64,000 nt of DNA from an uncultured bacterium (GTDB taxonomy: Bacteria > Verrucomicrobiota > Kiritimatiellia > PWTM01). The stretch spans positions 1-64,000 of the forward strand of contig CALLFZ010000034.1 in the NCBI GenBank assembly GCA_938010045.1, read 5' to 3'. The notes below the pieces were generated by a model. It saw only the letters and a program-made list of their open reading frames with translations, did not search any database and was not told where the DNA came from. Within the stretch, counting starts at the first letter, position 1. Each line of letters starts with the position of its first letter. The position numbers were made by a program, and so were the translations under genes. This document shows, piece by piece, positions 19,203 through 40,598 of the stretch.

Positions 19203-20332
19203 GCACGTCGCTGCTCATGGTCGCCGGCGAGCTCTCGGGCGATCTGCACGCCGCCGCGCTGCTGGCCGCCCTCCGCGAGCAGTACGGGGCGTTGGAGGCG
19301 TGGGGCGTGGGCGGTGATCGGATGGCCGCCCAAGGCGTGCGCCTGCTCGCCCACGTCCGCGACACCGCCATCATGGGATTCGTCGAGGTCGTTCGCCATC
19401 TCGGATTCTTCCTCCGCCTCCGCCGCACCGTGCTCGACGAAGTGCGTCGCCGCCGGCCGAACCTCGCCGTTCTCGTAGATTATCCTGGATTCAATCTACG
19501 GCTCGCCCGCGATCTGCACCGCCTCGGCGTCCGCGTCGTGTACTTCATCTGCCCCCAGGTATGGGCCTGGCATCGCTCGCGCATCCCGGCCATGGCTCGC
19601 TGCGTCGACCGCCTCATCGCCATCTTCCCGTTTGAGCCCGAGGTGTTTCGCGGCACAGGCCTGCGCGTGGATTTTGTGGGCCACCCGTTCGTTGACCAAC
19701 TCGTGCCGCTGCTCGACGCGCCCCCACCGGTGGATCTTTGGCCCCCGGGGACACCGCGCGTGGCGTTGCTGCCCGGCAGCCGACGCCAAGAGATCCGTCG
19801 CATCCTGCCGCCCATGCTCGGGGCTGCCGAACTCGTTCGGCGATGCTGGCCAGATGCCGCAGTCCTCATCGCGGCAGCCGAGCCGGCGCTGCTCGACCTC
19901 CTCGGCCCGTCTGCCCAACCACACGGCGTGGCCATTGTCGCCGGACGCACGCGGGACATTCTTCGCTCGGCGGACGCCGCGTGGGTGGCGTCGGGCACCG
20001 CGACGGTCGAGGCCGCTCTCCTGCGCTGCCCGCAAGTGATCGTCTACCGAGCCCATCCTCTGAGCTACCAAATCGGCCGCCGGCTCGTCCGCGTGCCGTT
20101 CATCGGCATGGCCAACCTGATTGCTGGCGAACGCGTCTGCGCCGAACGGATCCAGCACGAGGCCACGCCGGACGCACTCGCGGCGGCGATTCATCCTCTG
20201 CTGGAGGACGGCCCCGTTCGTCGCGCGATGCTCGCGGGATACGACCGGATTCGCGAGCGACTCGGCCCACCCGGCGCCGTCGCGCGCGCCGCCGCCATCG
20301 TCGCGGAAGAGCTCTCCCCCCGCTCCCACTGA
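19199..20332 (+). CDS. lpxB: Lipid-A-disaccharide synthase
   Basis: A GT19 glycosyltransferase that joins UDP-2,3-diacylglucosamine to lipid X to form the lipid A disaccharide at the inner membrane. Signatures include VAGELSGDLHAA at the start, YPGFNLRLA, YFICPQVWAWHRSR, the hinge VGHPFVDQ, LLPGSRRQEI and the C-terminal SGTATVEAALL. At 377 aa the length is normal. GTG 19199 overlaps the preceding stop (GTGA). It is the last gene of the kinase-lpxI-oxidoreductase-lpxB operon, and a repeat cassette starts 10 bases downstream. Confidence 0.95.
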   Translation: MSTSLLMVAGELSGDLHAAALLAALREQYGALEAWGVGGDRMAAQGVRLLAHVRDTAIMGFVEVVRHLGFFLRLRRTVLDEVRRRRPNLAVLVDYPGFNLRLARDLHRLGVRVVYFICPQVWAWHRSRIPAMARCVDRLIAIFPFEPEVFRGTGLRVDFVGHPFVDQLVPLLDAPPPVDLWPPGTPRVALLPGSRRQEIRRILPPMLGAAELVRRCWPDAAVLIAAAEPALLDLLGPSAQPHGVAIVAGRTRDILRSADAAWVASGTATVEAALLRCPQVIVYRAHPLSYQIGRRLVRVPFIGMANLIAGERVCAERIQHEATPDALAAAIHPLLEDGPVRRAMLAGYDRIRERLGPPGAVARAAAIVAEELSPRSH

Positions 20333-20341
20333 ACACCGAGC

Positions 20342-20940
20342 GCCGATGGCGCTGTGGATTGCACCAGTGCCTGTCCCCAATCGAGCCCCAGTGCCTGTCC
20401 CCAATCGAGCCGCCAATCGACACGATCGCGGCTCCCAATGCGGACAGGCACCTGACCAGAAGTCATCGTAGAGCGACAGCGATCTGGTTGCGTCGTCTCC
20501 ACCTATGCCGCTCCACAAACGAAGAAAGGAAAACCGGGGAAAACAGGGGACAGGTCGCCCGCAATCCCCTAATTCGGCATCACTCCCGCCGTGGTGGCTG
20601 TCGTTTGGGCTTGTGCGGCCGGGGATGTGTCGGCCACCAACTCGCCCAGAGAGGCGCCCGAGAGCGCCTGTCCCTAACGTCCTAACGTTTCAAACGTGCC
20701 TGTCCCTAGCGCCGCCCCAGCGGCCGTCCCCGGTGCCTGTGCCCAGGGAGGTCCCAGGTGCCTGCCCCCCGGGAAGCCCAGAAGGCGTTCAGCCGTCCCG
20801 CACCGCGCTCAGGACCTTTTCAGCCGGCAGGGTCTGGAAGAAGGCGACGGGCGGTGTCAAGGACGGGAGAGTCGTTGAGGCGATCCCCGCCCGAACCGAG
20901 AGGGGTGTAGTTGAAGTTCATGCGGGTCGTATCCGCCGCC
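20342..20940. repeat. REP-like repeat cassette, copy 1 (intergenic)
   Basis: The non-coding region after lpxB holds a clustered family of short motifs around GTGCCTGTCCCC and its reverse complement. It shares both edges with the region at 39850-40452: the left edge GATGGCGCTG(T/C)G(G/A)ATTG, and a right edge of about 110 nt (20825-20939 against 40337-40451). The middle is variable. Both copies are about 0.6 kb and in the same orientation. The motif style resembles REP/REPIN elements moved by RAYT transposases, but no transposase is in the window. Confidence 0.7.
20367..20452. repeat. REP-like motif pair and inverted copy
   Basis: Two direct GTGCCTGTCCCC motifs (20367-20378, 20391-20402) lie 24 nt apart within a tandem unit. 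An inverted copy GCGGACAGGCAC (20440-20451, one mismatch) follows after 37 nt, giving a REPIN-like stem-loop. Further degenerate copies lie near 20546 (GGGGACAGG), 20664, 20696, 20732 and 20758. Confidence 0.7.
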
Positions 20941-21065
20941 CCCCCACCCGCGTCCCGGGACTGGGTGGTCGAAATATCCGTATTTCTGGGGAGAACGGCG
21001 AGACACACCGGCGCAGAACGCGGGGGCGATGGTGGCCCACGATGTTCGCCTCCCTTCGCCCGCAT
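20820..21065 (-). other. Coding-like tail of repeat cassette copy 1
   Basis: On the minus strand this stretch reads as an open frame ending DRLNDSPVLDTARRLLPDPAG. The same frame in the other cassette (40320-40598) gives DRLDGPPDLETGRRYIP, and both share (D/N)T(T/A)RM about 14 residues earlier. The preceding 25 residues also align without gaps. Two homologous segments that keep one frame suggest a decayed or short conserved coding sequence, family unknown. It may simply be part of the repeat. Confidence 0.35.
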
Positions 21066-21121
21066 CGTGATGTCCAGCTGGTTCCCTGTCGCGCAATCGG
21101 TTCGAACAACGATCGTTCTGC

Positions 21122-21150
21122 TTGCGGCAACCCGCCGCCGCGCCTATCTT
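21122..21150 (+). promoter_or_regulatory. Candidate promoter for the NifU-like gene
   Basis: TTGCGG at 21122-21127 and TATCTT at 21145-21150 are 17 nt apart. A GGGAG ribosome binding site at 21165-21169 precedes the ATG at 21175. The boxes are only partial matches. Confidence 0.35.
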
Positions 21151-21174
21151 GTACCGATCTGAACGGGAGCAGCG

Positions 21175-21456
21175 ATGAACCAACCCGACGACATGACCAC
21201 GCCCGACGCGGCCGATTCGTTCGAGGAACGAGTGCGCCGTCTCATTGACGACCAGATCAGCCCGGCGCTGGCCAGCCATGGTGGCTTCGTCCGCCTTGTC
21301 GCCGTCGAAGGCCACGATGTACTGCTCGAGCTGGGCGGGGGGTGTCGCGGGTGCCCTGGTGCCCGCATGACCGTTCACCGCGGCATCGAGGCATTCCTCC
21401 GGGAACAGTTACCCGAACTCGGCCGAGTCATTGACGTGACCGACCACGGCCGCTGA
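21175..21456 (+). CDS. NifU C-terminal-domain iron-sulfur scaffold protein
   Basis: A 93-residue stand-alone NifU C-terminal domain. Residues 18-90 carry the family layout (RVRRLIDDQISPALASHGGFVRLV) and the cluster-binding pair in GGCRGCPGARMT, CxxC near residues 57-60. Such proteins carry or deliver Fe-S clusters in general assembly. A NifU domain alone does not indicate nitrogen fixation. A GGGAG ribosome binding site sits 5 nt before the ATG. It converges with the NYN-domain gene, whose last base abuts this stop. Confidence 0.88.
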   Translation: MNQPDDMTTPDAADSFEERVRRLIDDQISPALASHGGFVRLVAVEGHDVLLELGGGCRGCPGARMTVHRGIEAFLREQLPELGRVIDVTDHGR

Positions 21457-39834: not shown

Positions 39835-39902
39835 CCCGCCCCACTCGAGCTGATGGCGCTGCGAATTGTTTAGAGGGGGCAGACGAGGGTCTGGAAGCAC
39901 TT

Positions 39903-39951
39903 GTGCCTGTCCCTAATCGAATCGCGTGCGGCTCCAAATGGGGACAGGCGC
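39903..39951. repeat. REPIN-like dyad
   Basis: GTGCCTGTCCCT (39903-39914) and inverted GGGGACAGGCGC (39940-39951) flank 25 nt. The interior (AATCGA...GCGGCTCC..AATG) and the right flank (GA..AGAAGTC) match the dyad at 20391-20451 in the other cassette. Confidence 0.7.
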
Positions 39952-40004
39952 CCGAAAAGAAGTCGCAACAAATTGGAAATGAGATTTTTGCGTTGTCTGT
40001 GCAT

Positions 40005-40075
40005 GTGCCTGTCCCCAATTTAGTAACCAAGATCAGGCACCGAAGACCGGCCGGCGCCCCATGGGGACAGGCACC
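40005..40075. repeat. REPIN-like dyad
   Basis: GTGCCTGTCCCC (40005-40016) and a perfect inverted copy GGGGACAGGCAC (40063-40074) with 46 nt between. Confidence 0.7.
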
Positions 40076-40130
40076 TAGCAACCCCTAGCAACCCTCTTCG
40101 ATTTCCTTCCTACGCCACTGCGCCCAAAGA

Positions 40131-40276
40131 GGTGCCTGTCCCCATCGCGGTTCTATGGCGGCTGACGCAAGGCGACAATCGCCCAGTGCCCGGCCGACAA
40201 TACGTGCCTGTCCCCAGCAGCCCGCAAGGTGCCTGTCCCCAAAGAGTCCCCAACGAGCGCCCAGCTGCCTGTCCCC
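40131..40276. repeat. Direct array of REP-like motifs
   Basis: Four direct copies of (G/C)TGCCTGTCCCC at 40132-40143, 40204-40215, 40229-40240 and 40265-40276. Spacing is irregular (72, 25 and 36 nt), which argues against a CRISPR. The last copy is followed by AGGGAGGCCC, as in copy 1 (AGGGAGGTCCC after 20745). Confidence 0.7.
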
Positions 40277-40319: not shown

Positions 40320-40598
40320 TTAGGAACTTGTCGGCCCGCGGGTCGGAATGTAGCGTCGGCCGGTTTCAAGGTCGGGAGGGCCGTCCAGGCGATCCGCCCC
40401 GAAGGAAGTGTGAGGGGTGGAGTCGGAGCTCATGCGCGCGGTATTCACCGCGCTCTCGAACCGCGTTGAACCCTCAACGGACAACACATTCGTGTTGTTG
40501 CGCAGCGGCGAGAACCACCGGCGATTGGCGCCGAAACGTTGGAGCCAACGATATTCGCCCCGCTCCGCCGACGCCCGTATTGGCCACTCATTCCCCAC
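40320..40598 (-). other. Coding-like tail of repeat cassette copy 2
   Basis: A minus-strand open frame ending ADRLDGPPDLETGRRYIPTRGPTSS. It aligns without gaps over about 25 residues before the RM pair with the frame at 20820-21065 (L..NT...; (N/D)T(T/A)RM), then with small gaps through DRL(N/D). Family unknown; see the companion entry. Confidence 0.35.

Follow-up and report, generated by a model that had tools for sequence, protein, structure and literature searches.

The repeated cassettes in the window (the whole 64,000-nucleotide stretch of DNA that we analysed) are very likely composite non-autonomous transposons, in which a MITE of an IS5/IS1182-like element carries an array of the TIRYT-type motif GTGCCTGTCCCC, seeded before most of the dispersal. 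An earlier note had reported two copies of a cassette built around this motif, and the repeat proved to be real. In the window's own genome (3.22 Mb, 49 contigs) the 12-letter motif GTGCCTGTCCCC has 460 exact copies, 232 on one strand and 228 on the other, compared with 0 for a reversed-pattern control. Allowing one mismatch, we counted 15 sites in the window, where 0.39 were expected, and 14 of them lie inside the two cassettes. These two copies align with each other at the right edge (214 nt, 70%, E 4e-17) and at the dyad flank (37 nt, 84%, E 2e-5), and the second cassette, used as a query, matched 145 places in the genome. We give next to no credence to the reading that the cassettes are an assembly artefact or a chance similarity in a GC-rich genome. 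Several contig ends of the assembly do fall inside arrays, but the counts refute this reading, and the exact 9-bp duplications described below also speak against it.

Terminal repeats, target duplications and a transposase remnant

When the right edges of the cassettes were aligned further outward, they terminated with CAGCGCAATCGGCTC, which is the left-edge start GAGCCGATTGCGCTG in reverse complement. These terminal inverted repeats, GAGCCGATTGCGCTG(TGG), are 15-18 bp long (also written GAGCCGATTGCGCTGTGG) and flank most motif clusters, facing inward. The left edge GATGGCGCTG of the earlier note belongs to this longer repeat. Across the genome, a search that tolerated one mismatch located 75 such repeats, compared with 1 in the control. 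Both ends, as assigned by profile, were seen in 15 clusters, and each of these 15 pairs a left edge with a right edge, both pointing inward. Neither edge was seen in 8 of the 61 motif clusters; some of these arrays may exist without the transposon, or their ends may have decayed beyond detection.

Furthermore, among 425 pairs tested we found 9-bp target duplications in nine cases, four of them exact (AACCTGCCC, CAATTCTCC, GGCCACGCC and GATGCATCG) and five with one mismatch. From random left/right pairings we would expect 0.09 exact duplications, or 0.24 when one mismatch is allowed. The length of the duplication is constant at 9 bp, and copy 1 of the window is among the nine cases. The elements checked in this way are 322-1015 bp long with 1-14 motif-like sites, which bears out the description of a dispersed, non-autonomous element with a variable array.

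Copy 1 is a complete element of 764 bp on the plus strand (20340..21103). Its left terminal repeat, GCGCCGATGGCGCTG (20340..20354, plus strand), has 2 mismatches to GAGCCGATTGCGCTG, and its right one (21089..21103, minus strand) has 3. The left target-site duplication, GAACACCGA (20331..20339, plus strand), overlaps the final two bases of the lpxB stop codon; the right one, GAACAACGA (21104..21112, plus strand), differs from it by 1 mismatch. Copy 2, also on the plus strand, is a complete element of about 761 bp (39847..~40607) with a degenerate right end, and no target duplication was detectable for it. The cassettes had been taken to be 0.6 kb long; their true right ends lie ~150 nt further out. 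Their intergenic position was borne out: copy 1 lies directly 3' of lpxB (Pfam PF02684), and copy 2 has a pterin-binding gene (PF00809) on one side and a CBM_4_9-like gene on the other. The congener G017 has an empty orthologous site for copy 1, with the same gene neighbours side by side and the insert absent. Its homology to the window ends at the lpxB end (20313) and restarts at ~21117-21194 in the next gene region, where the gene that starts at 21175 reads as NifU-like from the G017 translation.

The minus strand of the right edge encodes the N-terminus of a transposase, with the consensus MNFDYTPSLFGWDRLDDSPDLETVRRFFQTLRAEKLLSALRNG. In copy 1 this remnant covers consensus residues 1-49 in two frames (20792..20939, minus strand) and in copy 2 residues 1-36 (40341..40451, minus strand). 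There are 26 matches to MNFDYTPSLFGWDRLDDSPDLETVRRFFQTLRAEKLLSALRNG in the window's own genome and 15 in that of the sister genus, G148. Within the elements only N-terminal and some C-terminal remnants were found, with stops and frameshifts, and none is intact. The short peptide matched nothing in Pfam or NCBIfam, and no relative of the N-terminus was found on plasmids.

The copies in G148 have the same terminal repeats without GTGCCTGTCCCC. One of them (L327), a 907 bp internal-deletion derivative, has a left edge with 93.5% identity over 62 nt and additionally holds a transposase C-terminus that weakly resembles DDE_Tnp_1. We found no intact autonomous transposase with exactly these terminal repeats; the nearest full-length relative, L353 in genome G416, has 445 aa and is 46% identical over the N-terminus. 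It scores above the cut-offs for DDE_Tnp_1 and DUF772 and below the curated family cut-offs for IS1182 (82 bits, cut-off 270) and IS5_4 (71 bits, cut-off 140), and for this reason we file the frame as IS5/IS1182-like and not as a member of either family. The remnant in the right edge, the C-terminus in G148 and the domain matches of L353 together indicate that the frame is a MITE of an IS5/IS1182-like element. Since the unit combines terminal inverted repeats, 9-bp duplications and a truncated DDE transposase start, we infer that it spread as an IS-derived MITE rather than through a RAYT.

The transposase N-terminus is 100% identical among G265:C3:22351-22461 (L351), G148:C13 and G290:C166; these represent two genera of the host family and one genome from a different family of the class. 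This identity suggests recent horizontal transfer of the IS.

Arrays of the motif inside the frame

The anatomy of the arrays was worked out from the stretches around ~60 motif clusters of the window's genome. Profile searches of these stretches detected the left edge 28 times, the dyad unit 90 times, a second unit 37 times and the right edge 9 times; the count for the dyad unit is inflated, because its palindromic ends make the profile match both strands. Profiles of the asymmetric interiors gave 36 copies of unit A and 29 of unit B, at ~82% identity to the consensus. The motifs are of mixed orientation with recurrent spacings, chiefly 65 nt for the inverted pair and 72 nt for direct pairs. 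Divergence at motif sites is ~6-11%, compared with 18% in the unit interiors, so that conservation of the motif is only moderately higher.

As single-stranded DNA, the dyads fold far better than shuffles (z about -3 to -5), and unit B as a single strand does not. A perfect palindrome in unit A was rejected, as its symmetric consensus was an artefact of mixing both strands. Pairing in unit A interiors is lower within copies (0.34) than between copies (0.48), and we therefore make no claim of compensatory change.

Copy 1 contains a motif array with a dyad (20367..20451; motifs at 20367+, 20391+ and 20440-) and a second group of motifs on the plus strand (20696..20769; at 20696, 20733 and 20758, with 1 mismatch each). 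In copy 2, the left terminal repeat and left edge (39847..39921, plus strand) end in the first motif. Unit A (39928..40020, plus strand) comes next, an inverted motif pair that flanks a partly self-complementary interior, with additional motifs at 40063..40143 (40063- and 40132+). Unit B (40115..40223, plus strand), with two direct motifs 72 nt apart and a conserved interior, is 88% identical to a copy at C4:93219, and final motifs follow on the plus strand at 40229..40276 (40229 and 40265).

A GTAG-tagged hairpin family, GTAGTTCCGCCGGTCCCCCGGCGGAA, is nested in the same clusters, with 20 sites in the stretches examined and 0 in the window. Clusters of the window's genome that carry it include L078, L088, L093, L095 and L102 (4937).

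The left edge is ~60 nt long. The motif stands at one fixed position after it in 20 of 31 left edges, and because this place is shared by most copies we consider the array to have been seeded before most of the dispersal. A variant of this explanation, compatible with its transposon part, holds that the motif entered repeatedly and independently: the MITE would have been a safe harbour for a now-lost TIRYT, and each array would have a separate history. The number, order and spacing of motifs do differ among arrays, the clusters also harbour nested canonical GTAG-type hairpins, and the congener G050 has 30 motif copies with no MITE at the loci examined. Against this stand the identical placement of the first motif and the recurrence of units A and B, whose interiors are diverged but homologous. 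The fixed first motif and the recurring units therefore argue that much of the array was inherited, and we regard independent entry as unlikely, with some weight left to it.

The motif and Y1 transposases

Of the 289 sampled genomes of the phylum, no more than two, the window's own and G050, have more than 3 copies of GTGCCTGTCCCC; the remaining family members have 0-1 each. At the G050 motif loci examined we found no MITE, units or edges. No viral contig matched the inverted motif pair, and a literature search with the motif string returned only unrelated papers.

In public genomes, the inverted motif pair was found in at least 109 stretches from many phyla. A Y1 transposase accompanies the motif in 32 of 34 genomes, which come from many phyla, and is present in 5 of 14 control genomes. 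The number of motif copies in those 34 genomes is 2-179, with control counts near zero in most of them. RAYT genes have the inverted motif on both flanks at L254, L255, L257, L259, L261, L263 and L264. Their proteins match Pfam Y1_Tnp and also the NCBI model for REP-associated tyrosine transposases, mostly slightly below its cut-off. At these flanks in other phyla (L254, L255, L257, L259 and L261) a stem that differs between lineages often encloses the motif as its loop, for example gcgtgcaaaa-GTGCCTGTCCCT-tttgcacgc. For 263 occurrences in the other-phyla genomes, the mean stem was 4.75 bp, compared with 2.86 with permuted partners, and 38% of occurrences had a stem of at least 6 bp, compared with 3% in shuffled flanks. 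In the window's genome no local stem was found around the motif (mean 2.57 bp vs 2.51 permuted), and GTGCCTGTCCCC has no GTAG or GTGG foot there.

A palindromic variant, GTGCCTGGCACC, flanks RAYT genes in a public Omnitrophica genome (L263, at 1236 and 2171) and in the family member G291 (L285 369-2456). At G213:C8:27492-27998 (L273), in the same family, a RAYT-like gene is followed by repeats of the near variant GTGTCTGTCCCC and preceded by degenerate copies in inverted orientation.

TIRYTs have been described as RAYT-like genes with terminal repeats that share the motif GGGGWSAS (Di Nocera et al. 2013, PMC3733652). The reverse complement of our motif, GGGGACAG, fits this consensus. For its motif part, then, the repeat family is not entirely unnamed, contrary to what the earlier note had considered possible. 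TIRYTs mostly correspond to subclass 2.1 of Quentin et al. 2018 (PMC6006769), and that survey reports no REP-like structures near subclass 2.1 genes.

The window's genome has no PF01797 match, and no intact RAYT was found in it. A RAYT profile search detected only two relics: C1:3576-4117, with a stop and a frameshift, and C4:93301-93540, which is truncated at the start of a motif array that it abuts. No RAYT-like gene flanked by the motif was found in this genome. The relics may instead have served the GTAG-type hairpins, because the GTAGTTCCGCCGGTCCCCCGGCGGAA hairpins are nested in the same clusters. In G050 we found only a broken RAYT and no motif-flanked one. Many contigs of the window's genome start or end in motif arrays (for example C3:1-150, C3:234764-235014, C5:1-134 and C29). 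The assembly has therefore been broken by this element family, and an intact RAYT or IS may hide in a gap.

These results bear on the possibility that a RAYT dispersed the cassettes as REPIN/BIME-like clusters, with the shared edges as flanking parts of the RAYT element. The motif is indeed tied to RAYT genes in many phyla, relics exist in the window's genome, one of them next to an array, and the dyads fold well. However, the unit has terminal repeats with 9-bp duplications, and to our knowledge RAYT/IS200-type enzymes produce no target duplications. Its right edge holds a DDE-transposase remnant, the sister genus has motif-free copies of the same transposon, and no intact Y1 transposase was found in the window's genome. 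RAYT dispersal of the unit as a whole is thus largely refuted, and we judge it very improbable. The suggested relation to REP/RAYT systems stands for the motif, which is linked to RAYT-type transposases, but not for the unit, which is an IS-derived MITE.

The motif could also be a putative host-protein binding site or RNA signal, such as a terminator or stabiliser, maintained by selection. Both window copies sit after a gene end and can fold, and the motif sites are less diverged than the interiors. The near-absence of the motif from the rest of the phylum, the lack of a local stem around it in the window's genome, its equal frequency in both orientations and the lack of an Rfam match all speak against this reading, which we consider improbable.

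Proposed history and known systems

Together, these data favour the composite transposon. The motif-free transposon in G148 and the transposon-free motif in G050 indicate that two systems met in the window's genome. The frame would be an internal-deletion derivative of an IS5/IS1182-like IS, its right edge corresponding to the start of the transposase gene. An IS5-like transposase would have mobilised it in trans, leaving the 9-bp duplications that are seen in the sequence. The GTGCCTGTCCCC of the array would be the motif by which TIRYTs, a widespread clade of RAYT-like Y1 enzymes, recognise their ends, probably captured, or seeded as an array, before most of the spread of the MITE. Later, copy by copy, the array may have grown, shrunk and diverged through recombination between repeats or the action of a Y1 transposase, and the RAYT was presumably lost from this genome. 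Because only RAYT relics were found there, mobilisation of the array in its own right has probably ceased. More tentatively, we suggest a wider scheme that we hold to be possible but not the likelier case: GTGCCTGTCCCC would be a near-universal loop for a large TIRYT clade, fixed across ~10 phyla on lineage-specific stems, and its capture by a DDE-type MITE in the window's genome would have carried it to dozens of sites after decay of the RAYT. If true, a repeat population was handed over from one transposition mechanism to another.

The layout resembles the BrickBuilt MITE of Porphyromonas gingivalis, which (PMC4596501) has IS5-type terminal repeats starting with GAG, a leader and a tail, and an internal repeat array of variable copy number. 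The BrickBuilt array, however, is a strict 23-nt tandem without spacers, whereas ours is built from motifs that belong to another mobile family and lie in both orientations, and BrickBuilt target duplications vary in length and sequence where ours are constant at 9 bp. With TIRtrons/TIRYTs (PMC3733652), our repeat family shares a motif, GGGGACAGGCAC, that fits GGGGWSAS, RAYT-like genes with the motif on both flanks, and repeats that are single, dimeric or grouped. Here the repeats lie inside a DDE-type MITE instead, and no intact TIRYT was found. No REP-like structure was found near subclass 2.1 genes in PMC6006769, whereas the motif-flanked RAYTs of other phyla, putatively of that subclass, often have a stem with the motif as its loop.

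MITEs with internal repeat arrays and TIRYT repeats are thus each already known (PMC4596501, PMC3733652), and we found no report of a MITE carrying TIRYT repeats in the portions of the open-access literature covered. By the same portions, the constant-loop, variable-stem form of TIRYT ends across phyla looks undescribed. A conserved loop with a variable stem is a candidate structure for the ends of subclass 2.1-type RAYTs, for which a published survey (PMC6006769) gives no REP-like structures, and it can be tested in vitro.

Like the REPINs or REP-BIME repeats of RAYT systems, our cassettes contain a short motif in inverted pairs, are numerous and intergenic, and are linked to Y1 transposases. 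GTAG REPs and REPINs, however, are marked by a GTAG or GTGG foot beside a hairpin of 7-20 bp, whereas here the motif has no such foot and no hairpin of its own in the window's genome, and a 9-bp duplication bounds the entire unit. The BOX elements of Streptococcus pneumoniae are likewise modular intergenic repeats, in which the ends are constant and the middle modules vary in number; their ends and modules are other ones, and the likeness is one of layout. The cassettes suggest a way for REP-like repeats to survive the loss of their own transposase, as passengers of an unrelated transposon, and so speak to the question of how such repeats persist.
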